This document shows, in pieces, positions 18,864 to 63,988 of a stretch of DNA of 64,000 nucleotides. The stretch spans positions 744,001-808,000 of the forward strand of contig OY101118.1 of NCBI GenBank assembly GCA_956465555.1, read 5' to 3'. The notes beneath the pieces are model-generated. The model saw nothing but the letters and a program-made list of their open reading frames with translations. It searched no databases and was not told the origin of the DNA. The stretch is from Nitzschia sp. pyKryTriq1. Taxonomy: Eukaryota; Bacillariophyta; Bacillariophyceae; Bacillariales; Bacillariaceae. Position numbers and translations under genes: made by a program. Within the stretch, counting starts at the first letter, position 1. Every line of letters begins with the position of its first letter.

Positions 18864-19410
18864 GTTTTGATCATCTCTATATTCGTAAAGAAAAGGTATA
18901 AGACTAAAAGATTACTCAGCCCGGCGTCTCAAGTCTTTCTGGCCTTTCTTATTTGTCATCATCGATGATGCTTCCATCATCCATATCCCCCTCGAGGCGT
19001 GAGAAACGTGTGGCTCTCAGCTTTTTTCATCGAAGGTCAGAGACCTCTTCGGCTTCGTCTCTAGTCTAGTTGATTGCGACGACTACTCGACCGACGGTCC
19101 CCCTTATAGAATCAAATGAATCAATCGTCCACCAGATATGATAGCGAGAGTGATTCCGCGTCGGACAGATGTGCGAGATGTCTCGCTCGATCCGGTCGCA
19201 TCTCAGCGCGGTCACATGACCCGCGACGGACTTTATTTCCCATGCGACCGTCTATTATTACCGGTATGCATGTACTCGCATACGAGTACTGGTACCAGTA
19301 CCGTCTCCTCATAAAAACACAACCCTAAATGAACAATTCGTAGAGGTTGAAGGTAGTGGTGCGGTATACCAACCCAACATTTGTATTGCAAGTCCAGTAG
19401 AATTGCAACA
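18864..19410. other. Divergent intergenic region between SETD9-like and sulfatase 1
   Basis: No gene. It holds an inverted-repeat-like segment (TCATCATCGATGATGCTTCCATCATCC at about 18957-18983) and a palindrome cluster at 19258-19305 (CATACGAGTACTGGTACCAGTACCG) close to the likely sulfatase 1 promoter. Confidence 0.4.
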
Positions 19411-21054
19411 ATGGCGGTACCGGTAACTCCACGTCGTGGTGTACTTTCACCTCGTGGCAGACGTACTTTTTCTAGTAGTACCGTGAAGCAGTTATATGGA
19501 GTGGTTGCAATCTTAGCGCTGGTAAATCTGATGCTTACCGTGTTGCAGTATGGTTCCCAGGTCGAAGTCAGCATGGGGGGTATGTCGTCAGCACGTTTAA
19601 TGGATAATGTGATTTCCACTCCCGCCGCATCTGACTTTCGACGACGCGAAAAGGAGCAAGAGAAGCAAGAAGAACCCCCCGCGCTCGACGAGCCCTTGAA
19701 TATCATGTTTTTCTACGCGGATGATTGGACGATGAAAGTGCTGGGGAAATTGAATCCATTAGTGCAAACACCAAACATCGATAAAATGGCAGACAATGGA
19801 ATTCTATTTACGAACAACTGCGTAACCACAAGCACGTGCTGGATCTCGCGAGCTACTATGCTCACTGGAACCTATGCGAGTCGGCATCAGTTTCTCTCCC
19901 CTCACCAAGATACATTATTTCGAACTCATCCTTGGAATGAAACCGTCTTCCCACTATTGAAATCCAACGGCTATTACACCGGTATTGTGGGGAAGTGGCA
20001 TTCGCCGCAACCAAAGGCAGAGATGGAAATGGCGTTTAATTCCAAACGCTGCTATTTTGGAAGCCACTGGGTGCCTAGAAGAGACGGCCAACTGCATCAC
20101 GTCACGGATCTGAATTTGCAAGATTCTTTGGAGTTTTTGCAGAAACGTCCCAAGGACAAGAAGTTTGCCCTCGTGGTCTCCTTTTTTGCAACCCACGCCT
20201 GGGACGGCCATGTTCCTACGTATCAGAACACCAATGAAACGAATGCTCGTTATTACAATGATGTGACCATTCCGACACCCAAGACGAACACGGACTCGCA
20301 TTGGAAGCGCATGCCATACTTTTTTCACACGAAGCAAAATGCCGGACACCGTCGGTATCGCGAGCGATTTGATCCTCCCAATTTTCAGGAGAATATCAAG
20401 GGATTGTATCGTATGGCTACTCATGTTGACGAAGCGGTGGGGAAACTCATCCAAACTCTCAAGGATCAAGGAGTTTACGACAAGACACTTCTCATCTTTA
20501 GCACCGATAACGGTAATCTACATGGCGAGCACGAGCTCGCCGAAAAGTGGGTTCCATATGAAGAGTCGATTCGAGTACCATTGATTATCGTTGATCCTCG
20601 AATGCACAAGTCGCAGCACGGAACGCGCAACGAAGAGTTTACACTGAGCATCGACTTGGCGCCTACGATGTTGGGTGCGGCAAAGATAAGTCCGAGTGGT
20701 TTCATGCAGGGCCGAGATATGGCTAGTCTATATTTACCGAAGAGGGACTCGGAGCCGGTGCGATGGCGGCAGGATTGGTTTTATGAATACAATCGAGGAG
20801 ATCCCATCACTGCTGAGGGACACCAAGTAAAAGACGGGATCGATGCTTCTTTTGCTCTGATTACGAAAGAATGGAAGTACATCTACTGGCCGCACCACAA
20901 GTACGAGCAAATCTTCCACCTAAGTGAGGACCCATTTGAAGAGTACGATGTTTTCAACAGGTCTCAAATAATTCCTACGGATGATGTATATTTCAAGTTG
21001 CGTGCTCGGTATGAAGTCCTGAAGAGCTGGGTGCAAAGTGGCAATCGGGTATAA
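19411..21054 (+). CDS. Sulfatase 1 of the tandem array (type II membrane anchor)
   Basis: 547 residues from ATG 19411 (the MAVP start conserved in paralogues 3 and 4). A basic N-terminus and one hydrophobic helix (about 30-48) form a signal anchor, so the enzyme faces the lumen or outside. The alkaline-phosphatase-superfamily sulfatase fold is complete. Metal Asp pair: YADDW. Nucleophile region: TSTCWISRATMLTGTYASRH, with Cys in the C-x-x-S-R-x4-TG frame (Pro of CxPxR replaced by Ile). Lys/His: VGKWH. Catalytic His: FFATHAWDGH. Second metal pair: FSTDNGNLHGEHELAEKW. C-terminal KYIYWPHHKYEQ is the family's closing strand. The Cys must be converted to formylglycine. Such enzymes hydrolyse sulfate esters, probably of sulfated polysaccharides or small sulfate esters; substrate unknown. 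Confidence 0.88.
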   Translation: MAVPVTPRRGVLSPRGRRTFSSSTVKQLYGVVAILALVNLMLTVLQYGSQVEVSMGGMSSARLMDNVISTPAASDFRRREKEQEKQEEPPALDEPLNIMFFYADDWTMKVLGKLNPLVQTPNIDKMADNGILFTNNCVTTSTCWISRATMLTGTYASRHQFLSPHQDTLFRTHPWNETVFPLLKSNGYYTGIVGKWHSPQPKAEMEMAFNSKRCYFGSHWVPRRDGQLHHVTDLNLQDSLEFLQKRPKDKKFALVVSFFATHAWDGHVPTYQNTNETNARYYNDVTIPTPKTNTDSHWKRMPYFFHTKQNAGHRRYRERFDPPNFQENIKGLYRMATHVDEAVGKLIQTLKDQGVYDKTLLIFSTDNGNLHGEHELAEKWVPYEESIRVPLIIVDPRMHKSQHGTRNEEFTLSIDLAPTMLGAAKISPSGFMQGRDMASLYLPKRDSEPVRWRQDWFYEYNRGDPITAEGHQVKDGIDASFALITKEWKYIYWPHHKYEQIFHLSEDPFEEYDVFNRSQIIPTDDVYFKLRARYEVLKSWVQSGNRV

Positions 21055-21938
21055 TTACGCTATGGGTTTTTGGCCTGACGCTTTGGTTCTGTCGGTCCAT
21101 CCATATGGTGTTGCCGGTACTTCTACAGTCACCAATCCTTGGCTGTCCATCGCATGCACAGAGTCAGTCCGTGAGAGAAAATTTCTGGTCCGCTTTTTGA
21201 TCAGGAATACCTATGGTTTTTCACTAGGAGTTCAGTTTGCACTCACTTCTTCGAATACATGTCACCAACTTCGTTGTCATAGTAGCTCCTTTCATCTTGT
21301 CTACGTAGACTACCGGTAGTCTACCTGTAAGTACGTACCGGTGCCACAGTGAAACAGTAAAATACAGTCCTTCACGTCTAAGCAAAAGCTGTGGAAGAGC
21401 CCGGATATGGCCTACTGGTCTAAGTAGTCCACTTTGTGCCAGGAATGAACTCGTAACTGTCCATGAGCGCAATGAGCAGACCTATTATTTCTCTGCAGCT
21501 AGCTCTCTACTACCGGTAGATAAAGAGCCTGCTTGTGACTTACTACAAGAGGTAATATGGCAAGCCTTTTTAACTCTTGCTTACTGTACGGTACTGTAGG
21601 TCACACGGAGCCACGGTCACGCCCAATAAAAAACAAAGGCAAAATGCTCGTAGCGCAACCGCGCGACGACGAGCGACACCGACGACTCCCTCGACTTGAA
21701 CTCTTCACAACTCTCGTCCGCCGCTCCGTCCGCCCGCCTTCACCTCTCCCTCTCTGTGCTTCACGATATTGTATAGAAGTAGTCTGAGCAAGATGATTAC
21801 ATAATAACACACAACAGCAGCAATCTCTAACGGTGTTTGATGATTGGTGATGTAGATACCTAGAGCTAGCCCAATGTGAAGCACACATTGATTCACATTT
21901 TATTCCGGCTTTCCGCGGCTTCCTGAAGGATTGCAGCC
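21055..21938. other. Spacer between sulfatases 1 and 2
   Basis: The first ~105 bases (21058-21155, from CTATGGGTTTTTGGCCTGAC to GGCTGTCCATCGCA) are nearly identical to the 3' flank of sulfatase 2 (23541-23633), marking the duplication unit. The remainder shows GTAC/CCGG palindromes (CTACCGGTAGTCTACC at 21307-21322; TCTACTACCGGTAGA at 21507-21521) and no gene. Confidence 0.6.
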
Positions 21939-23534
21939 ATGGCAGCACATCTCGTCAAACCTTCCGTCTCCCGGAACAGACAAGTATTTGGGTTGGCTGC
22001 ATTCTCGGTGCTCCTGCTTCTGGTGATTGCTGCGTTGCAGAATGGTTCCAAAGTCGAAATCACCATCGGGAATATGTTCTCGTCAGCGCGTTTGATGGAT
22101 GTGCTTTCCACTCCCGCTGGAACGGACTTTATGCGACGCGACAAGGAGCAGGAGGAAGAAGAAGCCCCCGCGATCGACGAGCCCTTGAATATCATGTTGT
22201 TCTACGCTGACGATTGGACGATGAAAGTACTAGGGAAATTGAACCCGTTGGTGCATACACCAAACATCGATAAAATGGCAGACAATGGAATTCTATTTAC
22301 GAACAACTGCGTTACCACCAGCGTGTGCTGGATGTCGCGCGCTACTTTGTTCACTGGAACCTATGCAAGCCGGCACATGCACCGAAAACCATTTCAAGAT
22401 GCACTATTTCGAACTCATCCCTGGAACGAAACCGTCTTCCCTCTATTGAAATCCAATGGATATTACACCGGTATTGTGGGGAAGTGGCAGGCGCCGCAAC
22501 CCAAAGCAGAGATGGAAATGGCTTTTGATCACAGGCGCTGCTATTATGGACGTCACTGGGAGCAAAGAGACGGCCGTCTCCAGCATGTCACGGATCTGAA
22601 TATGCAGGATGCTATCGAGTTTTTGCAAAAGCGTCCCAAGGACAAAAAATTTGCACTCAAGGTTTCCTTTTTTGCAACCCACGCCTGGAACAATCATGTC
22701 CCTGCATATGATACCAATAATGAAACGAAGGCTTACTACAATGATGTGACCATCCCGACACCCAAGTCGAATACGAACTCGCATTGGAAGCGGATGCCAT
22801 ATTTTTTCCACGAGAACAATCCGGGACACCGTCTGTACCGGAAACTCTTCGATCCTTCGAACTATCAGGAGAATATCAGGGAATTGTATCGTATGGCTAC
22901 TCAAATGGATCATGCGGTGGGGGAAATTCTCCAAACACTCAAGGAACAAGGAGTATACAACAAGACAATATTTATATTTACCACAGATAACGGCGATCTG
23001 CATGGCGAGCACGAGCTCGCCGGAAAGTGGGTTCCATATGAAGAGTCGATTCGCGTACCGCTGGTCATTGTGGATCCTCGAATGCACAAGTCTCAGCACG
23101 GAACGCGCAACGAAGAGTTTACGCTGAGCATCGACTTGGCGCCCACCATGCTGGGCGCTGCAAAGATAAGTCCGAGTGGTTTCATGCAGGGCCGAGATAT
23201 GGCTCGTCTATATTTACGGAAGAAGGGCGCGGAGCCGGTGCGATGGCGGCAGGATTGGTTTTATGAATACAATCGAGGAGATCCCATCACTGCCAAGGGA
23301 CACCCAGTAAAAGACGAGATCGATGCTTCTTTTGCTCTGATTACGAAAGAATGGAAGTACATCTACTGGCCGGAGCATAAGTACGAGCAAATCTTCCACC
23401 TAAGTGAGGACCCATTTGAAGAGTACGATGTTTTCAACAGGTCTCAAATAATTCCCACGGATGATGTATATTTCACGCTGCGTGCTCGGTATGAAGTACT
23501 GAAGAATTGGGCGCAAAGTGGCAATCGGGTGTAA
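21939..23534 (+). CDS. Sulfatase 2 of the tandem array (catalytic His replaced by Gln)
   Basis: 531 residues from ATG 21939. Signal anchor at about 20-38 (LAAFSVLLLLVIAALQNGSK). Same fold and motifs as its neighbours: YADDW, TSVCWMSRATLFTGTYASRH (Cys nucleophile; Met in the Pro position), FTTDNGDLHGEHELAGKW. The second sulfatase signature reads GIVGKWQAPQPK, where paralogues 1, 3 and 4 have GKWH. In characterised sulfatases (arylsulfatase A numbering) K123 and H125 of this motif contact the sulfate and the formylglycine, so replacing His by Gln should impair or alter catalysis. The gene is otherwise intact and shares its 3' flank with sulfatase 1. It could be a pseudoenzyme, or have shifted specificity. 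Confidence 0.86.
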   Translation: MAAHLVKPSVSRNRQVFGLAAFSVLLLLVIAALQNGSKVEITIGNMFSSARLMDVLSTPAGTDFMRRDKEQEEEEAPAIDEPLNIMLFYADDWTMKVLGKLNPLVHTPNIDKMADNGILFTNNCVTTSVCWMSRATLFTGTYASRHMHRKPFQDALFRTHPWNETVFPLLKSNGYYTGIVGKWQAPQPKAEMEMAFDHRRCYYGRHWEQRDGRLQHVTDLNMQDAIEFLQKRPKDKKFALKVSFFATHAWNNHVPAYDTNNETKAYYNDVTIPTPKSNTNSHWKRMPYFFHENNPGHRLYRKLFDPSNYQENIRELYRMATQMDHAVGEILQTLKEQGVYNKTIFIFTTDNGDLHGEHELAGKWVPYEESIRVPLVIVDPRMHKSQHGTRNEEFTLSIDLAPTMLGAAKISPSGFMQGRDMARLYLRKKGAEPVRWRQDWFYEYNRGDPITAKGHPVKDEIDASFALITKEWKYIYWPEHKYEQIFHLSEDPFEEYDVFNRSQIIPTDDVYFTLRARYEVLKNWAQSGNRV

Positions 23535-24290
23535 ATCCGCTATGGGTTTTTGGCCTGACGCTTTGGTTCTGTCGGTCCATCCATATGGTGTTGCCGGTAC
23601 TTCTACAGGCACCAATCCTTGGCTGTCCATCGCATTTTTTACACCGGATGAGGATTCGTCAGAAGCTGTGCTTTCTTTGTTTGCCTTCTGCCATTTCAAC
23701 TATTGTACCAGGTACGGCGTTACCTGTTCCTGCACTGCCACGAGTCACTACCGAGTATTCGCTGCTCTCCATCGCACGCACGGATTCCAGGAAAGAAAAG
23801 CTCTTCTCCGTAATTGTGAGCTATGGACTGCTGGTCTTGTCGTTGCTGGTGCCGTCGCGTCTCGTCGTCACTTCCCCTCTATCCTCTCCTCGTCAATTAG
23901 CTTTTTCTAGAGTGTAGAGAGGGAGTGGTCAGTCGAAGCCTGTTTGTGACTCCTTGCAATATTAACATGGATGTATGGGTGATTTAGGGAGAGGAGAGAC
24001 GAGAAATAGGGGAAGGGCGGGCCGATAAATCTATGCTCTACTACTATTAGTCGTAGCTCTCTCTCTCTACTCGACTCTCGACTACTAGTAGTAGCTAGAG
24101 AGTAGTAGTAGAGCAGTAGAGTCTACTGGATGGCTACGACCCGTAGAGTACAGTTGGATACAGTATCAGTATTGCAGTATTGTATTGGTACACAGCAATT
24201 CGTGCTAACTGTACTCGTACGTTTCGTACCGGTATCATACTGCACAGTGTCGTCGAAGCAGGGGGGCGGATGGTGCCCTTGCCCCTTGAT
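23535..24290. other. Spacer after sulfatase 2
   Basis: Starts with the duplicated ~100 bp 3' flank (to about 23633). At 24045-24125 there is a low-complexity CTA/TAG tract (CTCTCTCTCTACTCGACTC, ACTACTAGTAGTAGCTAGAG, AGTAGTAGTAGAGCAGTAGAG). Palindromic GTAC words follow (24150-24240). No gene. Confidence 0.5.
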
Positions 24291-24427
24291 ATGGCTCCAC
24301 TACGTTCTGCCACCTACGTTGCTTGTTGAGTTGGGTCCGGTCTAGTAATGCGAATCCGGGGTGTGGCAAAAAGGGGGATTTACTGTTGTCAGGATCCCTG
24401 CCCTTCCATCCGATTCGCTTGATTCGC
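24291..24427. repeat. Left terminal direct repeat of element A
   Basis: 137 bp, identical to 24681-24817 apart from one base near the end (CATCCGATTCG versus CATCTGATTCG). It starts ATGGCTCCACTACG and ends GCTTGATTCGC. Confidence 0.9.
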
Positions 24428-24680
24428 GAGGGTCGGCGGGGGCGGGCAGGTGGGTCAGCATTAAAACTCTATCTAAGCGTCTCTTCTGCACGATAGCAGG
24501 GATCGAACGATATCGATCCGGACGAAACAAAGAAAGTGCCATCGTCATGGTCACTCTCCTGTCTGTTGCTTTCTTGCTAGGCGGATCGGCCGTTAGCCAT
24601 CTGCGATAACTGGCTGGCGTCCGATCCTCCGGGCGATAATTCAATCTCCATCTGACCGTCCCCTCAAGCTTGCAACTGGG

Positions 24681-24817
24681 ATGGCTCCACTACGTTCTGC
24701 CACCTACGTTGCTTGTTGAGTTGGGTCCGGTCTAGTAATGCGAATCCGGGGTGTGGCAAAAAGGGGGATTTACTGTTGTCAGGATCCCTGCCCTTCCATC
24801 TGATTCGCTTGATTCGC
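24681..24817. repeat. Right terminal direct repeat of element A
   Basis: Copy of 24291-24427 displaced by exactly 390 bp. The block GTGTGGCAAAAAGGGGGATT in its second half resembles GTGTGGGAAAAAGGGCAG in the repeats of element B at the window end. Confidence 0.9.
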
Positions 24818-25663
24818 TCCATTTTGGCCCAGCCAAGGGTGGGTTAGGGGCCGGAGGCTCCGGGTGGGAAGCTAGGTGGCGGCCTTGAGGGGGACGCCGG
24901 CATTTGCGTTGGCAGCGGGGGGTGCGCCGGCTGCTATGCAAAATCAATTGTTGAGAAAAGATATTGCGCTGACTTGGCGAAATATTAATCTTGCATGACT
25001 TTCACATGGTTGACCAGATGAATCTATTTCATGTGGTATGAATCTCATTTTGTGTGGTGAGCTATTTTCGGTGCCTGTTTGGCAGTTGTAGTCTAGCACT
25101 TAGACTTGTAGTTTCTGTTGAGTCTTTGCAACGGACGGGGGCCAGTCGTACGTCGCGCGTCTCACACGCACCCGAGTCAATACGGGCCGACCACGTCATC
25201 GACTGGTCGTGGCTAGGGCGTCTGCGCATGCACGGCGCGCACTAGCGTGGAAGATCCTTCAGGACATTATCTACCGACGACGGGCAGACTATGGTCGTAC
25301 GAGTCGCGTAGACCGTGTGTATTGCAAATTCAATCTCCGTCTGACCGTCCCCTCAAGCTCGCAACTGGGATTTACCCCGATTTCTACCCCCACTAAAAAA
25401 GTCCGGAAATCGAAGAACTATGTCCCTTTCTCGCTTTCTCGCTTCGTCTCGCACGCGCCTCTGGAAATGGATAGCTCAACATCAACATCATTCAACATCG
25501 TACCAGTACTTGTACCGTAGTAAAAGCACGCGACGTGATTTGTCCTGCTTCGCCATTCCTACTCCGTATACCAGACAGTTGGGTACAGTACCAGTACTGG
25601 TACCCTATGATGGCTTTGTGAACATCAAAACATTTGAATCGCTACTAGAGTAAAATTGTAACC
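24818..25663. other. Spacer before sulfatase 3, with an element-A-related fragment
   Basis: GC-rich stretch 24830-24930, then ordinary spacer. At 25327-25370 a 44-bp segment repeats the last 44 bases of element A's internal region (24638-24681) with two changes (AATTCAATCTCC, TCTGACCGTCCCCTCAAGCT), then diverges to ATTTACCCCG. This is a third, partial copy of the element family. GTAC palindromes occur at 25500-25610. Confidence 0.55.
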
Positions 25664-27256
25664 ATGGCGGTACCTCTCATGAAACGTCCCGCACCTCGTA
25701 ACAGACAGTTATTTGGGCTGGCTGCACTGTCGGTGCTCGCGCTTCTTGTGATTGTTGCGTTGCAGAATGGCTCCCAAGTGGAAGTCAGTGTTGGGGAGAT
25801 GTCGTCAGCGCGTTTGATGGATATGCTTTCCACTCCCACCGCATCTGGCTTTCGACGACGCGACAAGGAGCAGGAGGAAGAAGAAGCCCCCGCGATCGAC
25901 GAGCCCTTGAATATCATGTTGTTCTACGCTGACGATTGGACGATGAAAGTACTAGGGAAATTGAACCCGTTGGTGCATACTCCAAACATCGATAAAATGG
26001 CAGACAATGGAATTCTATTTACGAACAACTGCGTTACCACCAGCATGTGCTGGATCTCAAGAGGCACTATGCTTACGGGAACCTATCCAAGCCGGCATAA
26101 GTTTCTTGAACCTCCCCAAGAAACATTGTTTCAGACTCATCCTTGGAACGGAACAGTCTTTCCACTCTTGAAATCCAACGGCTATTACACCGGTATTGTG
26201 GGGAAGTGGCATGCACCGCAACCCCATGCAGAAATGGAAATGGCGTTTGATCACAGGCTGTTATATTATGGACACCACTGGGAGCATAGAGACGGCCGTC
26301 TCCAGCATGTCACGGATCTGAATATGCAGGATGCTATCGACTTTTTGCAGAAGCGTCCCAAAGATAAAAAATTTGCACTCAAGGTCGCTTTTTTTGCAAC
26401 CCACGCCTGGGACGGTCATGTTCCTGCATATGATACCAATAATGAAACGAAGGCTTACTACAATAATTTGACTATTCCAACACCCAAGACGAACACGGAG
26501 TCGCATTGGAAGCGCATGCCATACTTTTTCCGAGAGAACAATGAGGGCCGCAATCGGTATCGGAACCGATTTGATCCTCCCAGCTACCAGGAGAATATCA
26601 GGGAATTGTATCGCATGGCTACTCAAGTGGATCATGCGGTGGGGGAAATCATACAAACTCTCAAGGATCAAGGAGTATACAACAAGACACTTCTGATGTT
26701 TACCACCGATAACGGCAATATGCATGGCGAGCATGGTCTTGCCGAAAAGTGGTATCCGTATGAAGAGTCTATTCGAGTACCGCTTGTCATTGTGGATCCT
26801 CGAATGCACAAGTCTCAGCACGGAACACGTAACGACGAGTTTACTCTGAGCATCGACTTGGCGCCCACCATGCTGGGTGCGGCAAAGATAAGTCCAAGTG
26901 ATTTCATGCAGGGCCGGGATATGGCTAGCCTGTATTTACGGAAGAAGGGCGCGGAGCCGGTGCGATGGCGGCAGGATTGGTTTTATGAATACAATCGAGG
27001 AGATCCTATCACTGCCGCTGGGCACGGAGGAACTTTTTGGATTGATGCCTCTTTTGCTCTGATTACGAAAGAATGGAAGTACATCTACTGGCCGGAGCAT
27101 AAGTACGAGCAAATCTTCCATACAAGCGTGGACCCTTTTGAAGAGAATGATGTTCTCAACAGCTCTCAAATACTTCCCACTGATGACGTATATTTAAAGT
27201 TGCGTGCTCGGTATGAATTTCTGAAGAATTGGGTGCAAAGCGGAAAGCCGGTGTAA
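25664..27256 (+). CDS. Sulfatase 3 of the tandem array
   Basis: 530 residues from ATG 25664 (ACCATGGCG). Signal anchor about 20-38 (LFGLAALSVLALLVIVALQN). All catalytic elements are present: YADDW, TSMCWISRGTMLTGTYPSRH (Cys nucleophile, Ile in the Pro position, Ala to Gly after Arg), GIVGKWHAPQPH, FFATHAWDGHVP, FTTDNGNMHGEHGLAEKW and RVPLVIVDPR. The N-terminal 60 codons and the C-terminal ~100 residues (GTFWIDASFALITKEW, HTSVDPFEE, NSSQILPTDD) are closest to sulfatase 4. The segment just after the nucleophile (ISRxTMLTGTYxSRHxFL) is closest to sulfatase 1, which suggests recombination between copies. A membrane-tethered sulfate ester hydrolase is likely; the substrate is unknown. Confidence 0.88.
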   Translation: MAVPLMKRPAPRNRQLFGLAALSVLALLVIVALQNGSQVEVSVGEMSSARLMDMLSTPTASGFRRRDKEQEEEEAPAIDEPLNIMLFYADDWTMKVLGKLNPLVHTPNIDKMADNGILFTNNCVTTSMCWISRGTMLTGTYPSRHKFLEPPQETLFQTHPWNGTVFPLLKSNGYYTGIVGKWHAPQPHAEMEMAFDHRLLYYGHHWEHRDGRLQHVTDLNMQDAIDFLQKRPKDKKFALKVAFFATHAWDGHVPAYDTNNETKAYYNNLTIPTPKTNTESHWKRMPYFFRENNEGRNRYRNRFDPPSYQENIRELYRMATQVDHAVGEIIQTLKDQGVYNKTLLMFTTDNGNMHGEHGLAEKWYPYEESIRVPLVIVDPRMHKSQHGTRNDEFTLSIDLAPTMLGAAKISPSDFMQGRDMASLYLRKKGAEPVRWRQDWFYEYNRGDPITAAGHGGTFWIDASFALITKEWKYIYWPEHKYEQIFHTSVDPFEENDVLNSSQILPTDDVYLKLRARYEFLKNWVQSGKPV

Positions 27257-28014
27257 ATGTGCTATGAGCTTTTACCCGACGAGGAGTGGTCAGAAGTTAC
27301 GCCTTCTGTTTTTTTCTCTTGATCCAAGTACATATTTATATATTATGCCGGTTTCGGTACTTGCACTGTCTGCATTCCTTCGGTGTCCATTGTACCAGGT
27401 ACACATTGAGTGTAGGAAACAGAGATTTTTTCCTATTTTGTCGACTACAACTGCCCCTACAGTACCGATAGGGTTAGTCACTTTTGATATTCAAACTCAC
27501 AATACTTAGAATACATGTGACTACTTGCAACTACGAATAAATCACAACGTGCCGCCGGTTCGATACAGATTACATAGGCAATTGTAAAGCAAGAGCAAGA
27601 CTCGCTAGCTCTAGAGATATTCTCAATTGAGTGTATCATAGCTGCCAAGGGCTTTACGAAACCAAATTATCAGGTGCTGGCAGTTTTAGGAAACTGTCTT
27701 AGCCGAACATGGATCAATAGTACTTCGTAGATAGAACCACCGCCGGCCAGATAGATTAGTTCGGGGGATATTTGTGGGGGAGGATTTTCAGAGCAAGTAA
27801 GATTGAATATTCGTTTTCCCTTCTTTCCCCATGGAAATTTGAACGTGAAATTCTTCACGGTCTTCTACAAGTGTGTATAATACTCGTAAAATGCCGGTAC
27901 TCGTACTGTACAGGACAGGACGAGTATGCACTGTTTATATGTTGCAGTTTGCGGCAAACCAATTTGCATTTTGCATTGCCCTCTAGCTCTAGAGTTGGAA
28001 TAGCATTGTAAACC
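27257..28014. other. Spacer between sulfatases 3 and 4
   Basis: No gene supported; a 62-codon frame at 27670-27858 (-) is not convincing. It contains a GTAC palindrome cluster at 27885-27925 (GCCGGTACTCGTACTGTACAG), placed like those upstream of the other sulfatases. Confidence 0.4.
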
Positions 28015-29610
28015 ATGGCGGTACCTCTCGTGAAACGTCCCGCACCTCGTAACAGACAGTTATTTGGGCTGGCTGCACTCTCGATCCTACTGCTTCTGGT
28101 GATTGTTGCGTTGCAGAATGGCTCCCAAGTGGAAGTCAGCATTGGGGAGATGTCGTCAGCGCGTTTGATGGATATGATTTCCACTCCCGCCGCATCTGAC
28201 TTTCGACGACGCGACAAGGAGCAGGACACGGAAGAAGAACAGCCCGCGATCGACGAGCCCTTGAATATCATGTTGTTCTACGCGGACGATTGGACGATGA
28301 AAGTACTAGGGAAATTGAACCCGTTGGTGCATACTCCAAACATCGATAGAATGGCAGACAATGGAATTCTATTTACGAACAACTGCGTTACCACCAGCGT
28401 GTGCTGGATGTCGCGCGCTACTATGGTCACTGGAACCTATGCAAGCCGGCACATGCAGCAGAAACCATCTCAAGATGCACTATTTCGAACTCATCCTTGG
28501 AACGAAACCGTCTTTCCACTTTTAAAATCCAACAGCTATTACACTGGTATTGTTGGGAAGTGGCACGCCCCATCGCCCAAACCTGAGATGGAAATGGCGT
28601 TTAATCATAGACGCTGCTATTATGGACACCACTGGTGCCATAGAGACGGCCGTCTCCAGCATGTCACGGATCTGAATATGCAGGATGCTATCGACTTTTT
28701 GCAGAAGCGTCCCAAAGATAAAAAATTTGCCCTCGTGGTCTCCTTTTTTGCAACCCACGCCTGGGACGGTCATGTTCCTGCATACGATACCAATAATGAA
28801 ACGAAGGCTTACTACAATGATGTGACCATCCCGACACCCAAGACGAACACGGAGTCGCATTGGAAGCGCATGCCATACTTTTTCCGAGAGAACAATGAGG
28901 GCCGCAATCGGTATCGGAAGCGATTTGATCCTCCTAGCTACCAGGAGAATGTCAAGGAATTGTATCGTATGGCTACTCAAGTGGATCATGCGGTGGGGGA
29001 AATCATACAAACTCTCAAGGATCAAGGTGTATACAACAAGACGCTGCTTATATTTACCACAGATAACGGCAATCTGCATGGCGAGCACGGCCTTGCCGAA
29101 AAGTGGTATCCGTATGAAGAGTCTATTCGAGTACCGCTGGTTATTGTGGATCCTCGAATGCACAAGTCTCAGCACGGAACGCGCAACGAAGAGTTTACAC
29201 TCAGCATCGACTTGGCGCCCACCATGCTGGGTGCGGCAAAGATAAGTCCAAGTGATTTCATGCAAGGCCGGGATATGGCTAGCCTGTATTTACCAAAGAA
29301 GGGCGCGGAGCCGGTGCGATGGCGACAAGATTGGTTTTATGAATACAATCGAGGAGATCCTATCACTGCTGCTGGACACCAAGGAACGTTCTGGATCGAT
29401 GCCTCTTTTGCTCTCGTTACGAAAGAATGGAAGTACATCTACTGGCCGGAGCATAAGTACGAGCAAATCTTCCATACAAGTGTGGACCCATTTGACGAGC
29501 ACGATCTTCTCAACAGCTCTCAAATACTTCCCACCGATGATTTGTATTTCAAGCTGCGCCTTCGATACGAGTTTCTGAAGAGTTGGGTGCAAAGTGGAAA
29601 GCGGGTGTAA
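28015..29610 (+). CDS. Sulfatase 4 of the tandem array
   Basis: 531 residues from ATG 28015 (ACCATGGCG). Signal anchor about 20-38 (LFGLAALSILLLLVIVALQN). Motifs: YADDW, TSVCWMSRATMVTGTYASRH, GIVGKWHAPSPKPEMEM, FFATHAWDGHVP, FTTDNGNLHGEHGLAEKW. The N-terminus and the whole C-terminal half match sulfatase 3, while the nucleophile segment (VCWMSRAT, SRHM.QKP.QDALFRTHPWN) matches sulfatase 2. Reading lengths and motif spacing are the same in all four, so none is truncated. The array probably arose by repeated unequal crossing-over, followed by gene conversion. It is convergent with the DUF1499 gene, only about 190 bases downstream. Confidence 0.88.
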   Translation: MAVPLVKRPAPRNRQLFGLAALSILLLLVIVALQNGSQVEVSIGEMSSARLMDMISTPAASDFRRRDKEQDTEEEQPAIDEPLNIMLFYADDWTMKVLGKLNPLVHTPNIDRMADNGILFTNNCVTTSVCWMSRATMVTGTYASRHMQQKPSQDALFRTHPWNETVFPLLKSNSYYTGIVGKWHAPSPKPEMEMAFNHRRCYYGHHWCHRDGRLQHVTDLNMQDAIDFLQKRPKDKKFALVVSFFATHAWDGHVPAYDTNNETKAYYNDVTIPTPKTNTESHWKRMPYFFRENNEGRNRYRKRFDPPSYQENVKELYRMATQVDHAVGEIIQTLKDQGVYNKTLLIFTTDNGNLHGEHGLAEKWYPYEESIRVPLVIVDPRMHKSQHGTRNEEFTLSIDLAPTMLGAAKISPSDFMQGRDMASLYLPKKGAEPVRWRQDWFYEYNRGDPITAAGHQGTFWIDASFALVTKEWKYIYWPEHKYEQIFHTSVDPFDEHDLLNSSQILPTDDLYFKLRLRYEFLKSWVQSGKRV

Positions 29611-47733: not shown

Positions 47734-49239
47734 CTAATGCTTAACCTTTCCCATCACAACAAAGTACAATGCAACAGGCATGATCAGACAACCCATTATC
47801 AGCTGAACATAGGCCATGACCTTTGTAGCATCCATAGCAGGCTGAAGTTTCACATAAATGAGACCCGGGAGAACGTAGCTCACAAGTGTGGAACCGGTGG
47901 CACCCACCATGGCTAGAACAACTCCCAGATCATCCACTACAACTGCGATCACAAACGACAGGAAAAGAAAGGATATCGTGATGGCGTCAAACACTCCGTC
48001 ATCGCTCGAAAGATTGTTGTCAACGTTGTCCTCTGACTCTGTGTCGTTTCTGATACCATAGGATTCCGTGGAAGCCGAATATTCAGTATCTGAAAAGCGG
48101 CGCCGAAAGAGACTCCGAGCTCGTCCTACTTTCCACTTGTTCACTACTGTGAGAAGACTAGTGATGCATCGGCGCGATGGGTCGAGTTGTAATGGATAGT
48201 GTAGTGCTAACATGAAGGCAATGCACATCCTCAATATTGTCACGTATCCATTCTCGGGATAGTTCAGAAGAATATCTCCTCGTACATTGGAGCCAAATGT
48301 ATGATATCCTTCAATGGCAACAATGTAGAACAGCACCAGGGCGAATCCAATCGAGGCAAAAATGACAACATTCAATCGTACTTGGGTCCGATCTTGGAGC
48401 TCATTGACGATTGGGAAAATGTTCTGGTGACAAGTAAAGGCAAAGATAAAGATGGGAAGCTTTGACAATGTTGAAGGGGCATCTGTAAATGCAACAATTT
48501 CTCCTCGACAGTCCTCGACTTGATCGGGGCATGCATCGGCGATGTCGTAGGCATAGGCAATGATCCCAAAGGCCAGAAAGAAGACAAAAATCAAGGCTAG
48601 AGCCGACGTCTTTTTGAGATCGTCCAGTGTTCTGTAGAACGAGAATGGCATGACGGCCAAGACGGCACCGACTACCCAGAATTGTCTCGAAAGAACCAAC
48701 TTTAAGAAGAACGTATCATCGTGTTCTGGGTCCCCGTTCAAAAGTATATGATCCAGGGCATCAACCATGCAATCGCCAACTGTAATTAGATATCCCGTCG
48801 CAACACCAAAACACTTCAAGGCGACTGCTAGATCAATCAAAATCGTGTATTGTGGAACTGCTGCACAAGCCACTGAATAAAACGAAGAGGGCAAACCCGC
48901 CCTTTGTGCTGCTTTCGATAATAATACCAGGCCGTGAGCCGAAAAGAAGGAGCCCAGCAGAATTAAAATCGTCCCTCCAACATTTCCCGTCCCAGCAAAC
49001 GCGCCTGGTAGTCCCAACATTCCAGCTCCGACAATTGTGTTGGTTAGATTGATGAAACCGCTCCATAAAGTCGCATTACCACCACTAGCACAACCCATCG
49101 TCTCCGATCTCACAAGGGGAGTTTGAGGCCCCATATCAACTCCAGCCTGCATTGGACGTTCACTGTTCACGACGGGAAGACTAATTTGTGTGTCGAATGT
49201 CTTGTTCGCATCGTTGCGGCCGAAAAAACTTCCATACAT
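47734..49239 (-). CDS. AAAP (SLC38/SNAT-type) amino-acid transporter 1
   Basis: Single exon, 501 residues from ATG 49239. A 55-residue hydrophilic N-terminus leads into TM1 with the AAAP signature LWSGFINLTNTIVGAGMLGLPGAFAGTG. About ten further membrane helices are visible (GGTILILLGSFFSAHGLVLL, YTILIDLAVALKCFGVATGY, FWVVGAVLAVMPFSFYRT, ALALIFVFFLAFGIIAYAYD, IFIFAFTCHQNIFPIVNEL, FASIGFALVLFYIVAIEGY, then YPLQLDPSRRC and three C-terminal helices). The FxFTCHQNIFPIVNEL block in TM6 is highly conserved in SNAT/AVT transporters. Predicted proton- or Na-coupled neutral amino-acid transport at plasma or vacuolar membrane. A large acidic loop (about 390-420) separates the final helices. Confidence 0.9.
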   Translation of the reverse strand: MYGSFFGRNDANKTFDTQISLPVVNSERPMQAGVDMGPQTPLVRSETMGCASGGNATLWSGFINLTNTIVGAGMLGLPGAFAGTGNVGGTILILLGSFFSAHGLVLLSKAAQRAGLPSSFYSVACAAVPQYTILIDLAVALKCFGVATGYLITVGDCMVDALDHILLNGDPEHDDTFFLKLVLSRQFWVVGAVLAVMPFSFYRTLDDLKKTSALALIFVFFLAFGIIAYAYDIADACPDQVEDCRGEIVAFTDAPSTLSKLPIFIFAFTCHQNIFPIVNELQDRTQVRLNVVIFASIGFALVLFYIVAIEGYHTFGSNVRGDILLNYPENGYVTILRMCIAFMLALHYPLQLDPSRRCITSLLTVVNKWKVGRARSLFRRRFSDTEYSASTESYGIRNDTESEDNVDNNLSSDDGVFDAITISFLFLSFVIAVVVDDLGVVLAMVGATGSTLVSYVLPGLIYVKLQPAMDATKVMAYVQLIMGCLIMPVALYFVVMGKVKH

Positions 49240-51894: not shown

Positions 51895-53709
51895 ATGCAC
51901 CGCATGCACCGCATGCATCGCATGACACGAGACACGACGAGTGAAGCCGTCGTCGTCAATTGTTTCGTCTCCATTTTAGTCCGTACGAGTAGGAGTAGTG
52001 CACTAAAACAGGTTGACATTGACAGTTCACTTCAAAGGACACCTCATTTGAATTCTTCAATTGATATCATGGGGACTGAAGAATCACCAGCAGCCACCAC
52101 GGTAGTAGCTTCGGAAACTCCTTCCGAAGAATTACCAAGTAGTTCTTCGCCTTCCGTCGCGGACAATGACGTCGTACCAGTACCCAACGGCACCACCGAG
52201 ACGGATGCGTCGCCTGCCGAAACTCAAGTGCACGAGCTCGGTGGTGACGCATCCGACATCTTCCTAGTCCCCCACACTGATGATTCGATTCCCGTCCGCG
52301 TTGGCTCCACATCCAGCGCCCGATTCAACATACTCTCCACCATGGTCGGAGGAGGATGTTTGTCGTTACCTCTTGCTTTCCAACAGTCCGGGAACGGGTT
52401 GCTGGGCCCAGTTATGTTGATTGTTACAGGGTTGATCACGGACTTTTGCTTTCGACTGCTAGTGGCTAGTGCGGTTCAGCTGAACGCTCCAAACTCAACC
52501 ATTCCTGGGAAGGACAGCTTTGAAAGCATCACGAGCGCTGCTTTTGGACCCAGGGCGTACGTCATGAGCATGTCGCTGGTGACAGCCATGTGCTTCTTCG
52601 GAGCGGTTGGATATTCCGTGCTGCTGAGGGATATGATGGAGCCCTTGAATGACTACTGGCCTTTTTTGACGGGCCTCCTCGCGCATGGATGGATCCACAA
52701 GAATTTTACCTTGTTTCTCGTCATTTTCATCGTGACTCCGGCCTGCACGCTCACCAATTTTACGGCGCTGCAAAATTGCGGAGCAGCTAGTATGACGTCC
52801 ATTCTCATTTTGGGGACGTGCATTGTTATTCGAAGTGTCCAGTGCAATATCCATGCCCCGCACCCCTGGTACACCTATGTCACTCTCTGGCCTGAGTCGC
52901 CTCGGGAACTCTTGGATGCCTTGCCTCTATACATTTCCTGCTTTGTATGCCATTACAATATCTTGCCCGTCCATAACGAATTGAAAAACCCGACCCCCGC
53001 ACGAGTCTCATGGTGGTTACGATCCACGACATGGTATGCGGTCGGGCTCTATATGATTATGGGTTTTAGTGGCTCGACCTATGGTCACTGCACAGAATCG
53101 GGGAAAGTCCACGGAAATGTATTATTGGATTTCGATGAAAATGATCCCCTCCTCATGGTAGGCCGTATGTGTTTGGCCTTGACCATCACACTGGCCTTCC
53201 CCATGTTGGTCATTCCAGCTCGAGATATTTTGCTGCGATCTATCATCTTGCCCTATATGAGGAATGAACGCCATAGCAGCACGCCAGCAGCTGCGGCCAC
53301 CATGGAAGATACTACTACTGCGGAGCAACTCCAAGAACCCCTATTGACGGATGAAGAGCGTCCCGCTGCTGAGGGAAATGAGCATGACGCCGAGTCGGAA
53401 GAGGAGGACACGGCCACGGCTTCCTTCTGGCTCCGCTTGGCCACGGCGACTGGAATCTTTTGGACGGCTGGTCTTGTCGCCAGTTGCGTGGCGAGTATTG
53501 ATCTCGTCTGGGATCTTCTAGGGAGCTCGCTGAGTATTTTGTTGAGCTATATTATTCCTTGCGGATGCTATTTGATGATCATGAAAGACGTATCTGGTGA
53601 CTCACGAACGACTTGGTCCAAGGCTCTTTGCTGGCTCTTGATTGTTTTTTTCGTGCCGTTGATGTTCATCTCTACGGGCAACGCGGTGGCAAACACATTT
53701 TTCAGCTAA
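51895..53709 (+). CDS. AAAP (SLC38/SNAT-type) amino-acid transporter 2
   Basis: 604 residues if translation starts at ATG 51895. A second good candidate is ATG 52069 (ATCATGGGGACTG), which gives 546 residues. The first 12 residues of the long form are a repeated MHRMHRMHRM from a 9-bp tandem repeat, which makes the upstream start doubtful. The transporter core has SSARFNILSTMVGGGCLSLP (AAAP TM1 with GxGxLxLP), TDFCFRLLVASAVQL, about nine more helices, LPLYISCFVCHYNILPVHNEL (TM6 block parallel to CHQNIFPIVNEL of transporter 1), and DENDPLLMVGRMCLALTITL. A Glu/Ala-rich loop (about 470-510) separates the last helices. It is the same family as transporter 1 but only distantly related, so the pair is not a recent tandem duplicate. 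Confidence 0.86.
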   Translation: MHRMHRMHRMTRDTTSEAVVVNCFVSILVRTSRSSALKQVDIDSSLQRTPHLNSSIDIMGTEESPAATTVVASETPSEELPSSSSPSVADNDVVPVPNGTTETDASPAETQVHELGGDASDIFLVPHTDDSIPVRVGSTSSARFNILSTMVGGGCLSLPLAFQQSGNGLLGPVMLIVTGLITDFCFRLLVASAVQLNAPNSTIPGKDSFESITSAAFGPRAYVMSMSLVTAMCFFGAVGYSVLLRDMMEPLNDYWPFLTGLLAHGWIHKNFTLFLVIFIVTPACTLTNFTALQNCGAASMTSILILGTCIVIRSVQCNIHAPHPWYTYVTLWPESPRELLDALPLYISCFVCHYNILPVHNELKNPTPARVSWWLRSTTWYAVGLYMIMGFSGSTYGHCTESGKVHGNVLLDFDENDPLLMVGRMCLALTITLAFPMLVIPARDILLRSIILPYMRNERHSSTPAAAATMEDTTTAEQLQEPLLTDEERPAAEGNEHDAESEEEDTATASFWLRLATATGIFWTAGLVASCVASIDLVWDLLGSSLSILLSYIIPCGCYLMIMKDVSGDSRTTWSKALCWLLIVFFVPLMFISTGNAVANTFFS

Positions 53710-58610: not shown

Positions 58611-61600
58611 TTAACGACGGTATTTGCGCGTCAACATTTTTCGGAGGGCATCCCATTCACAAGCTCCTGGTAGGAAATCCGGTAATACAGACTGCTCGGC
58701 TGCGTGGGCAAGCACTTTTTCGCTAGGGAAATTGATTTTCTGGCCCGTTTGAAGACAGGTCAATTGTGTCTGGCAAGCCTTGTCGAAATAATACGCCAAG
58801 ACCCACGCTTCTCCAAGTGTTCGGCCGAAGGTACAGAAACCGTGATTTTCCATTAGCAAAGTGTTGACATTCCCTTCCTTGATCGCACTGCCGATTAGCG
58901 CCTGCTCTTCGCGGTCGTTACTGACACCGTGCCACGGGTGGCGGGCCACACGTCCAATGAAAGGCGCAGCCTCCTGAGCTAGTGGTACGAATCCCATCTC
59001 GAGGCAGGAAACGGCAACAGTCGCAGGGGTGTGCAAATGCACGATTGCTTTGATGTCAGATCGAGTCTTGTAGACAGCTTCGTGGATAATGTCTGCGGTG
59101 ACATTCCCGGAGCTCTTGACTAGATCGTTCGGCCCAATATCATCGAACATGCGACTTCCCGGAGTAATCAAGAAGGATCCGTCGGAGAGGAGAACCGAAA
59201 TGTGGTTCCAGACGAGCTCGTCCATATCAAACTCACGAGTGATGCGGTAGCAATCACTCAATTCCAGGCGCATACGTTGCTCCTCCAATCGAAGGATTCC
59301 ACGTTCTTCGAGAGTATCTTCGATCTGGTTTGGAATATCTTCGACCAATTCCTTACGCACATATGTAGTATTGGTTGCGAAGTGAGGTGTAATGGTACAG
59401 TTCTTCATTCCCCAGAGTTTGTGGTCCGGTGGCAACGGTTCGGGATCAGTGGTATCAAGAATGGCATGTCGAATAAGACCTTCATCCAGAGCCTTGAGCA
59501 TTCCAACTGTATCGACGACCTTTCCGCGTGCCATGTTAATGAAGATGGCGCTTTCCTTCATCAGATGGAACGAAGAGTAGTTGATCAAGCCAGTTGTCGC
59601 AGGTGTCAAGGGCGTCATGGGAACGATCACATCGCAAGTACTTAGCAGATCAGCGATCCCAACGTGGTACATATGATGGGTACCGTCTTCAAAGCGGCAC
59701 CGGATGCCTTCCGGAACATGGTAGACAAGTTCACAGCTGTTGGAGAGAGATCGAATTCGTCGAGCGGTTTCAATTGCAATTGCACCCATACCGATAAATC
59801 CGATCTTACTATCGTCAAGATCGACTCCATCAGAGTTCCAGGTCAAGTTCCAGGATGCCCCGGGGAAAGGTACTCCAACATTTTGGAAACCATTTCTGAG
59901 TCCGAAAATAATGTTGGACAATAAATAGTCAGCGACAGATTTAACAATCTGATCACGAGCAGCCCGACGGATTCGGATACCACGCTCTTGAGCAGCGGCG
60001 ACGTCGATGTGATCTAAACCTGCAGACAAGGTTACGATCAATCTTGTCGTACTTGGGAGCGCCATGATTTTATCACGGGGGAGTTTTTCCTTTATGTTCA
60101 CAACAAGGACATCCGTACCGAATTTGAGGTCTCCATCTAGCTCATTGACGGAGTAGTTCATCATGGATCGAGGCTCAGGTGCAACCGGAGGGGTGCTGTA
60201 GAAAACAACGTCGTAGGGTTTTCGGGCAGCGATGATACCCCACTTGAAGACGCCACGGTCCGCTTGTCCGATGCGGCTGCTCAACCGGCTACGGTGGGTT
60301 TTGAGGAGCTGCAAGTTGCGGCCGCTGTATTCACCCGACTCCATCATAGAAATGATCTTCTGCAACAGTCCCTGCAAGGAAACACGGATTTCCGCAGTAC
60401 AGTCAATAAACTTGACTTCGCTCCACCCGGCACTAGTTGCAAGCGCCACGCATTGGGTTGGAGTGGTCCAGTCCGTAATACCATGCTCTTTCACGAACTT
60501 CTCGACCTCTTCCTCTCGGTCCTTTCCATCACCCCTCATCAGATCCGAAATCATCAGCCAACCGCCACCCTTCGTGACGCGGAAAGCTTCCTTGAATGCA
60601 TCAAGTTTGTCGAAAGCGTGGATGAAGGCGTCCTGCGACATGCAGCCGTCAAAATAGTTCGAATAGTCCGAATTTAGACGTTCGAATGTGCCAAGTTGAA
60701 CGTCAATTTGGCTCCCTAGTCCCTGCTCATCAGAGAGATTTCTGTTCTCAGCGCTTTGTTTGGGGTCGATGTCGATGCACGTTAAGTGAATTCGTTTGTC
60801 TTGTTTGCAAATAAATCGAGCTGCTGAACCGTTACCAGATCCGAGGTCGAGGTAGTTGGCCCGCTCCGGCGCGATATTATTAGCACTTTGAGAGGACAAA
60901 GAGCGGAAAACAGGGCACATGCCTCTGGCGCGAGCCCAGAGCCAATCGGTCATTCGATCAGAAGATTGATGCATGACAGTTCCTAGTCCAAAGAGACGAG
61001 CATTCTCGTCCTCTTCAAGGGCATGAAGCATGAGATCATGGAATTTACGCTTGGCGATAACATCATCACTGGTGATGATACCATGAAGATGGAGCTTTTT
61101 GCGCATGACGGTTGATCCAAGCTCAAACGCGTCGTTGAACGAGAGTGTAGACTTTTCGCACATGCTATACGCTTGAGCAATCTCGCCCAAGTCACTCATG
61201 CCATCGACAACCTCAAGGATGTTTCGCTTTTGAAGTTCGAGCATCGCATTTTCTCGTTCGGCATGAGCCGCAGGCAAGAAGTCGTCGGAGAGCGTAATGA
61301 TGGCCTTACAGTGGACTTCGCCGACAGTTTTCTTATCAAGGACTGGGCAGGCTTTAGAGCAAAAGACAATCACGTCCCACTTGTTCTCCTTCGACATGGC
61401 CTTGTCCCATGGAAGAAAGGCTCTGGGCGGGATAGTTGAATCCTCACATTTAGCCTTGCCGGGATCACTCAAGAACACCGTATCTGTTTCTCTAGTGAGC
61501 AAGAAGTATAGCTCACGTGAGAGCGGTGTAACTCCCATCAAGACAATGCGATTTGAGGTCCATTTCTCAGTCTTGACGAGAGTAATAATTGATCCAAACG

Positions 61601-62240
61601 TAGACTGGGCCGCACTTTTGGCAACAGTGTTGTCACGCAAGGCTTCTTCAGAAACCATTGCCGAAGGTACAGGAAACTCAAAATCTTCGGGAAGAGTGGC
61701 AAACGAACTCTTGCGCCTGTGCAGAGTAGGGAAACCCTCCTCGTTTACCTCAGCTTTCTTCTCTTCGTTCTTTTGGTCCGATTGTTGAATCTTTAGTTTT
61801 TCGTTGGCCTTGTACATGCTCATAAGGTCTTCCTTCTCCAGACCGTTCGGCAAACATAGAATGTTTGTTTTGGAAAACTTCTCAAGTTCAGGAACAAGAG
61901 CCGATAGCAGCATGCGCCGATTTTCTGGGATATCCTCGTCCTTGGTGTTAAAGTAGAGCAAGATACCTGCTCCGCCCACTTTCAAGCCCGTTACGGCACA
62001 CTTGGTACTGGTGATACCAGCGGTGCGATGCAGTTCCAAACAAGCAGCATCAACATTCGCCCAGGTCTCGCCAAGTACGCCAAACTCTACCCGAGCGGCA
62101 GAGATGGCGTTTCCACCGTAGTGGTTAACCACGATAAATCCTCCACCGATCCCGTGAACTTTGAAATCCGCCATTTTGAATGGCACCGAAAGGTCGGGCG
62201 CATTCAGGAGATCCACTCCACTATCCGTCCGAGGCAACAT
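58611..62240 (-). CDS. Four-module enzyme: degenerate ELFV dehydrogenase - SAM methyltransferase - D-2-hydroxyacid dehydrogenase - class II aldolase
   Basis: One uninterrupted frame of 1209 residues from ATG 62240. Module 1 (about 20-375) resembles Glu/Leu/Phe/Val dehydrogenase: TKCAVTGLKVGGAGILLYFN aligns with the GLxxGGGK loop but lacks the catalytic Lys, and the Rossmann turn reads LMGVTPLSREL instead of GxGxxG, so it is probably non-catalytic. Module 2 (about 455-675): class I methyltransferase, ANYLDLGSGNGSAARFI, HLTCIDIDPKQSAE, SQDAFIHAFDKLDAFKEAFR, GGGWLMISDLM, nearest by eye to glycine/sarcosine/dimethylglycine-type N- or S-methyltransferases. Module 3 (about 680-985): D-2-hydroxyacid dehydrogenase, IGFIGMGAIAIETARRI (NAD site), FINMARGKVVD (Arg), TITPHFATNT (His). 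Module 4 (about 1000-1205): class II aldolase/adducin fold, GSFLITPGSRMFDDI, AIVHLHTPATVAVS (zinc HxH), LLMENHGFCTFGRTLGEAW (third His). The likely job is multistep processing of an amino-acid-derived 2-oxo/2-hydroxy acid; the exact pathway is inference. Confidence 0.85.
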   Translation of the reverse strand: MLPRTDSGVDLLNAPDLSVPFKMADFKVHGIGGGFIVVNHYGGNAISAARVEFGVLGETWANVDAACLELHRTAGITSTKCAVTGLKVGGAGILLYFNTKDEDIPENRRMLLSALVPELEKFSKTNILCLPNGLEKEDLMSMYKANEKLKIQQSDQKNEEKKAEVNEEGFPTLHRRKSSFATLPEDFEFPVPSAMVSEEALRDNTVAKSAAQSTFGSIITLVKTEKWTSNRIVLMGVTPLSRELYFLLTRETDTVFLSDPGKAKCEDSTIPPRAFLPWDKAMSKENKWDVIVFCSKACPVLDKKTVGEVHCKAIITLSDDFLPAAHAERENAMLELQKRNILEVVDGMSDLGEIAQAYSMCEKSTLSFNDAFELGSTVMRKKLHLHGIITSDDVIAKRKFHDLMLHALEEDENARLFGLGTVMHQSSDRMTDWLWARARGMCPVFRSLSSQSANNIAPERANYLDLGSGNGSAARFICKQDKRIHLTCIDIDPKQSAENRNLSDEQGLGSQIDVQLGTFERLNSDYSNYFDGCMSQDAFIHAFDKLDAFKEAFRVTKGGGWLMISDLMRGDGKDREEEVEKFVKEHGITDWTTPTQCVALATSAGWSEVKFIDCTAEIRVSLQGLLQKIISMMESGEYSGRNLQLLKTHRSRLSSRIGQADRGVFKWGIIAARKPYDVVFYSTPPVAPEPRSMMNYSVNELDGDLKFGTDVLVVNIKEKLPRDKIMALPSTTRLIVTLSAGLDHIDVAAAQERGIRIRRAARDQIVKSVADYLLSNIIFGLRNGFQNVGVPFPGASWNLTWNSDGVDLDDSKIGFIGMGAIAIETARRIRSLSNSCELVYHVPEGIRCRFEDGTHHMYHVGIADLLSTCDVIVPMTPLTPATTGLINYSSFHLMKESAIFINMARGKVVDTVGMLKALDEGLIRHAILDTTDPEPLPPDHKLWGMKNCTITPHFATNTTYVRKELVEDIPNQIEDTLEERGILRLEEQRMRLELSDCYRITREFDMDELVWNHISVLLSDGSFLITPGSRMFDDIGPNDLVKSSGNVTADIIHEAVYKTRSDIKAIVHLHTPATVAVSCLEMGFVPLAQEAAPFIGRVARHPWHGVSNDREEQALIGSAIKEGNVNTLLMENHGFCTFGRTLGEAWVLAYYFDKACQTQLTCLQTGQKINFPSEKVLAHAAEQSVLPDFLPGACEWDALRKMLTRKYRR

Positions 62241-63453: not shown

Positions 63454-63599
63454 CGTCTAACAACGGCTGCGTCAGCTCACCGTCCTACGTCATGGCATAC
63501 CATGGAAAGAGATGGGGGATAGTGTGGGAAAAAGGGCAGTCATTTACTGGACCGCACCCTTGCCCCCGAAAGAGTCGAATGACTCGATCGGTTCCTAGC
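63454..63599. repeat. Left terminal direct repeat of element B
   Basis: 146 bp from CGTCTAACAACGGCTGCG to CGATCGGTTCCTAGC, identical to 63843-63988. Confidence 0.92.
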
Positions 63600-63842: not shown

Positions 63843-63988
63843 CGTCTAACAACGGCTGCGTCAGCTCACCGTCCTACGTCATGGCATACCATGGAAAGAG
63901 ATGGGGGATAGTGTGGGAAAAAGGGCAGTCATTTACTGGACCGCACCCTTGCCCCCGAAAGAGTCGAATGACTCGATCGGTTCCTAGC
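63843..63988. repeat. Right terminal direct repeat of element B
   Basis: 146 bp identical to 63454-63599, ending 12 bases before the window edge. Confidence 0.92.

Follow-up and report, generated by a model that had tools for sequence, protein, structure and literature searches.

A four-module diatom protein as a candidate single-chain multienzyme of the transamination route to DMSP

Can one eukaryotic polypeptide carry several consecutive steps of dimethylsulfoniopropionate (DMSP) synthesis? The question is raised by a reading frame of 1209 residues in a stretch of 64,000 nucleotides (the window) from the diatom Nitzschia sp. pyKryTriq1 (contig OY101118.1, positions 744,001 to 808,000). We consider it probable, at roughly 60 percent, that the encoded protein is a single-chain multienzyme of the transamination route, the last three steps of which lead from 4-methylthio-2-oxobutyrate (MTOB) through 4-methylthio-2-hydroxybutyrate (MTHB) and 4-dimethylsulfonio-2-hydroxybutyrate (DMSHB) to DMSP. 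The first-pass annotation had described a single frame that joins four domains normally found as separate proteins, and this description holds: the 1209 residues are uninterrupted, the first in-frame stop 5' of the ATG is 35 codons away, and the codon-position base composition is alike across all four parts of the frame (Table 1). A Pfam search gave domains above cut-off for modules 2 to 4 (Methyltransf_11, 3.6e-12; 2-Hacid_dh, 5.9e-9; 2-Hacid_dh_C, 1.1e-40; Aldolase_II, 3.3e-31) but only one, sub-threshold match for module 1, to ELFV_dehydrog_N (E value 0.16 with the whole protein, 0.042 with residues 1-399 alone). The key motifs that had been noticed in modules 2 to 4, namely the S-adenosylmethionine (SAM) loop, the nicotinamide adenine dinucleotide (NAD) loop, the Arg/His residues and the zinc HxH and H, were all found. 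Pattern-based whole-chain scans of genome_contigs and viral_contigs and IMG/VR scans with paired alignments found no relative, eukaryote genomes lying outside the reach of these searches; in whole-chain searches of plasmids and solved structures this architecture was absent among the matches listed, with coverage below 80 percent at every plasmid place. A search of the open-access literature, with subscription papers mostly outside its reach, found no paper on this kind of protein.

Table 1. Positions in the window of the reading frame and its modules.
Feature	Position	Strand	Description
Whole frame, 1209 aa and stop	58611..62240	-	ATG at 62240, stop ends at 58611, no internal stop
Module 1, residues 64-363	61152..62051	-	Degenerate leucine/glutamate-dehydrogenase-like domain
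Module 2, residues ~421-672	60225..60980	-	Class I SAM methyltransferase, DsyG / sarcosine-dimethylglycine N-methyltransferase superfamily
Module 3, residues ~677-979	59304..60212	-	D-2-hydroxyacid dehydrogenase; predicted MTOB reductase
Module 4, residues 987-1206	58623..59282	-	Class II aldolase/adducin fold; candidate oxidative decarboxylase

Independent support for this reading comes from bacterial dsyG loci. In the accessible text of Wang et al. 2024 (PMC11306096), the bifunctional DsyGD, in which two pathway steps are fused, adjoins a predicted MTOB reductase. We searched 388 Cyanobacteriales genomes with PF04115, the DsyD family, and the matches listed include a 519-residue frame with Methyltransf_11 and Ureidogly_lyase domains, that is, a DsyGD. 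The methyltransferase part of this frame, used as query, located DsyG-type places (at least 47 percent identity) in three of the 388 genomes, four places in all, one with an internal stop. Among 366 Pseudomonadales genomes a cyanobacterial DsyG matched one (G1136) at an E value of 1e-45 or better; this genome encodes a DsyGD of 494 residues, the length reported for that of Gynuella sunshinyii in the same accessible text (PMC11306096). We checked 29 methyltransferase loci (L129-L157) for a nearby relative of module 3, and tblastn against the collected loci revealed a dehydrogenase directly behind dsyG. A gene of this type lies there at three of the five dsyG places; of the other two, one contig (G353:C770) ends about 320 bases on, and in G101 a different gene on the opposite strand comes next. 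The paired genes are adjacent on one strand, methyltransferase then dehydrogenase, which is directly observed to be the module order of the diatom protein. Read from the first possible start their frames overlap by 19 to 40 bases, and read from the first internal MK-type methionine they lie within about a dozen bases. Fusion of such an adjacent pair would give the order of modules 2 and 3 as seen. At one cyanobacterial dsyGD (L222, 5076-7037) there is also a long aspartase/fumarase-like frame immediately upstream, its translation judged by eye.

Module 3 has the hallmarks of a D-2-hydroxyacid dehydrogenase, namely the NAD loop and the catalytic residues R905, E934 and H953, and it carries a PHFATN signature. 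Its top two matches in the 388 Cyanobacteriales genomes are the genes adjacent to dsyG and dsyGD (142.1 and 133.7 bits; the third match reaches 104.2), the same two genes lead in a search of eight genomes, and solved structures score at most 116.2 bits. Within individual genomes, the dsyG neighbor is the sole match at an E value of 1e-10 in G228 and the best of three in G353, and the gene behind dsyGD is the best of seven in G1136 (122 vs 74.7 bits). In a tree of 39 rows, module 3 and the three dehydrogenases neighboring dsyG or dsyGD form one clade (support 100/99), which survives the removal of any one neighbor in quick trees (Shimodaira-Hasegawa-like approximate likelihood ratio test, SH-aLRT, 95.6 to 100). 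Two trees that separate module 3 from these neighbors obtained approximately unbiased P values (p-AU) of 0.008 and 0.007, and the PHxATN motif is limited to these four of the 39 rows. The clade was settled by the addition of the third neighbor, from G1136; an earlier tree with two neighbors had support of 99/94, yet alternatives were kept at p-AU of about 0.06, and quick trees without one neighbor and six long rows lost support for the clade. Reverse BLAST from two of the dsyG-adjacent dehydrogenases among 36 rows placed module 3 24th in both lists, self counted. By clade and PHxATN motif, module 3 belongs with the dsyG-associated 2-hydroxyacid dehydrogenases, which are predicted MTOB reductases.

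Module 2 leads to the same gene pair. It contains the SAM loop DLGSGNGSAA and the motif SQDAFIH at residues 535-541. We collected its relatives as the best 80 of 219 from genome_contigs, together with those from 10 of the 294 genomes in the phylum of locus L018, which we take to be Planctomycetes. In a BLAST search with module 2 among 115 methyltransferases, the five DsyG sequences occupied ranks 1, 2, 3, 4 and 9. A profile of these five gave 126.6 bits on module 2, whereas 60 random five-sequence profiles of betaine-type enzymes had a median of 95.5 and peaked at 118.5. A tree without outgroup, with 32 of the 110 betaine-type rows, split module 2 and the five DsyG from all 32 (support 98/93). 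Judged by its sequence, module 2 is a member of the DsyG/sarcosine-dimethylglycine methyltransferase superfamily. This superfamily also suggests a protein of glycine-betaine type, in which the N-methylation of sarcosine or dimethylglycine would fall to module 2 and the handling of glyoxylate or hydroxypyruvate to the other modules. The nearest NCBIfam model (NF041675, sarcosine/dimethylglycine N-methyltransferase, 1.8e-14) and the closest solved structure (2o57, a putative sarcosine/dimethylglycine methyltransferase, 3.5e-19) are both of that kind, and the SQD motif is retained. We nevertheless regard such a protein as improbable: the match to NF041675 reaches 54 bits against a curated cut-off of 550, module 2 has lost or altered several Tyr, His and Trp sites kept in about 97-100 percent of the 110 betaine-type enzymes, the outgroup-free tree sets the betaine-type enzymes apart, and module 3 clusters with dsyG-adjacent genes.

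The DsyD domain, PF04115, was not found in the 1209-residue chain up to an E value of 1, and the C-terminal domain is PF00596. With that domain above cut-off and the metal-site histidines in place, module 4 falls within the class II aldolase/adducin superfamily. Its presumed metal-site residues, His 1068, 1070 and 1133, are retained in all 30 aligned bacterial homologues. A structure model built from 31 sequences had a predicted local distance difference test score (pLDDT) of 92.5, and Foldseek with this model returned 3ocr and adducin first and then NovR (template modelling score, TM, 0.83), TqaM and pyruvic oxime dioxygenase, the latter three above the fuculose aldolases of E. coli. NovR matches module 4 by sequence at 2e-11, and one TqaM structure entry holds D-3-phenyllactic acid, a 2-hydroxy acid. 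According to the available part of PMC13111500, NovR and CloR use three-His iron and O2 for the oxidative decarboxylation of a 2-hydroxy acid, and the conversion of DMSHB to DMSP is likewise given as an oxidative decarboxylation in the available part of PMC3986220. For the algal DMSHB decarboxylase step, knowledge is described as still lacking in the accessible text of Wang et al. 2024 (PMC11306096). By analogy with NovR, module 4 is a candidate for this decarboxylase. Gene pairs of aldolase and dehydrogenase also occurred among the best plasmid matches; this pairing looks like a selection effect, as none of 30 aldolase homologues from Alphaproteobacteria has a module 3 relative within the roughly 1.5 kb covered on each side. 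A gene group on a Cupriavidus plasmid (L001, 7632-9695) encodes a class II aldolase/adducin protein together with a RidA protein and an NAD(P)-dependent oxidoreductase that module 3 matches, and in L002 and L003 the aldolase gene adjoins a gene for glyoxylate/hydroxypyruvate reductase A.

Module 1 had been read as an amino-acid dehydrogenase; the fold is probable by profile alignment, but an active enzyme is not what we find. Alignment with hhalign to dehydrogenases of the ELFV family (28 of the 30 fetched) gave P 0.0027, whereas all 30 shuffles stayed at 0.1 or above. Against seven mostly leucine-dehydrogenase-like sequences (eight were requested), residues 64-363 aligned collinearly over both halves at P 0.0069; among 100 shuffles the lowest P was 0.054. 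In this alignment the first substrate Lys is retained (STK), GGGK is replaced by GGAG with loss of the catalytic Lys, the acidic motif downstream is gone, the dinucleotide motif GxGxxG reads GVTPLS, and ANN and NAGG are gone; the roles given are those of the corresponding residues in leucine dehydrogenase. The catalytic Lys and dinucleotide glycines that mark Glu/Leu/Phe/Val dehydrogenases are thus absent. Searches with module 1 of plasmids, the PDB, NCBIfam and nine genomes returned nothing significant, and a single-sequence structure model was unusable (pLDDT 34). Since this Lys and the Asn are lost, as are the acidic motif and the dinucleotide loop, module 1 does not appear to be an active amino-acid dehydrogenase; most likely it is an inactive relic with a distant leucine-dehydrogenase-like fold. 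The loss of this active site, together with the presence of adducin among the closest sequences of module 4, raises the thought that one or more of modules 2 to 4 are inactive too, module 4 being, for example, an adducin-like scaffold. We hold this to be very unlikely, given the intact SAM loop, the Arg, Glu and His of the dehydrogenase and the three His that recur throughout the bacterial homologues of module 4.

In the pathway that we infer, in which all substrates, the decarboxylation by module 4 and the part played by module 1 are predictions, module 3 would reduce MTOB to MTHB, module 2 would transfer the methyl group of SAM to the sulphur of MTHB to give DMSHB, a role like that of DsyG or DSYE, and the three-His metal site of module 4 would act as in NovR and CloR, converting DMSHB to DMSP by oxidative decarboxylation. 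Module 1, as the inactive descendant of an amino-acid dehydrogenase, may have been retained to help assembly or to sense methionine or the corresponding oxo acid. That two modules independently lead to the same bacterial gene pair makes synthesis of DMSP the leading explanation. The link to DMSP drawn in the first-pass annotation is thus strengthened by the grouping of module 3 with dsyG and dsyGD neighbors, the best matches of module 2 to DsyG and the structural nearness of module 4 to NovR, but it loses the active module 1. The full version of the proposal, in which one eukaryotic polypeptide takes the route through its last three steps, MTOB to DMSP, the long-sought algal DMSHB decarboxylase is an iron- and O2-dependent enzyme of class II aldolase fold in place of the bacterial DsyD, and the inactive module 1 is either a remnant of the first step or a sensor for it, is more tentative, and we would put it at a little under even odds.

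Several observations count against synthesis of DMSP. On module 2, the profile built from all 110 betaine-type rows reaches 119.3 bits, near the 122.9 bits of a four-sequence DsyG profile. The phylogenetic separation of module 2 from betaine-type methyltransferases, which had been proposed as a check, holds without an outgroup but is undecided with one (p-AU 0.509 vs 0.505); outgroup trees were made with 45 of 121 rows after thinning and with 39 rows, the long or odd loci L094, L015 and L156 being omitted. At 30 sites that discriminate DsyG from betaine-type enzymes, module 2 is of betaine type at nine, of DsyG type at five and of neither type at 16, and it has SQD, as in betaine N-methyltransferases, where all five DsyG have SEE. 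Modules 2 and 3 form long branches in every tree. By sequence, module 4 is closest to adducin and to the Pseudomonas protein 3ocr, and of three dsyG genomes searched for a homologue of module 4, two have none and one has a weak match. The predicted MTOB reductase of Gynuella was inactive on MTOB under the conditions tried, as stated in the accessible text of PMC11306096. Because the discriminating sites are mixed and SQD stands in place of SEE, module 2 is placed in a distinct subfamily, its methyl acceptor being a prediction. A new substrate would fit such a subfamily: the same architecture could act on another 2-oxo or 2-hydroxy acid, which module 3 would reduce, module 2 would methylate (at N, O or S) and module 4 would cleave or decarboxylate, so that another osmolyte or metabolite would be made. 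Many positions that DsyG and the betaine enzymes both conserve are missing from module 2, and these losses, like the 16 sites of neither type, would be expected for a new substrate; identity to the relatives in DMSP clusters is low, at 23-25 percent in module 2 and 29-33 percent in module 3. We consider another substrate rather unlikely, since modules 2 and 3 each point, independently of one another, to one bacterial DMSP gene pair whose order matches theirs.

The window carries eukaryotic genes and one gene of fibrillin type, the latter suggesting a plastid. Four tandem sulfatase genes (PF00884 with SGSH_C), each of 530-557 residues, lie at 19381-29607 on the forward strand. Two amino-acid transporter genes (PF01490) are found at 47737-49239 and 51895-53706, at most about 11 kb from the fusion gene, and upstream of the latter is an identical direct repeat of 146 bases (63454-63599 and 63843-63988, 389 bases from start to start).

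If module 4 decarboxylates DMSHB, an open question of the algal pathway becomes testable with one gene. If the reading as a whole is true, the gene may serve as a genetic marker of DMSP synthesis in algae without known methyltransferase genes, and a bacterial gene pair would have been turned into part of one multi-step eukaryotic enzyme.

Among known systems, the protein most resembles DsyGD of Gynuella sunshinyii and some Oscillatoriales. Both have a methyltransferase of the same superfamily in one chain with a decarboxylase (a candidate one in the diatom protein), and the 2-hydroxyacid dehydrogenase beside DsyGD is of the clade of module 3 and stands in the same order. They differ in that DsyD is of the ureidoglycolate-lyase type (PF04115) whereas the diatom chain has a class II aldolase-fold domain, in that the reductase, fused into the diatom chain, is encoded there by a gene of its own, and in that the leucine-dehydrogenase-like part is present only in the diatom protein. 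DSYE and TpMMT, the algal MTHB S-methyltransferases, are likewise described as DsyG-related and as occurring in diatoms in the accessible text of PMC11306096. DSYE, in algae including diatoms, and TpMMT are reported there as single-domain proteins and by that description differ from the fusion. NovR/CloR and TqaM share the class II aldolase fold and the three-His metal site with module 4; NovR and CloR act as stand-alone enzymes on aromatic substrates, and NovR is 21-22 percent identical to module 4 in structural alignment. The sarcosine/dimethylglycine N-methyltransferases share the superfamily and the SQD..H motif with module 2, which lacks many of their conserved substrate-side residues; in several genomes they are fused to, or encoded beside, a second methyltransferase.

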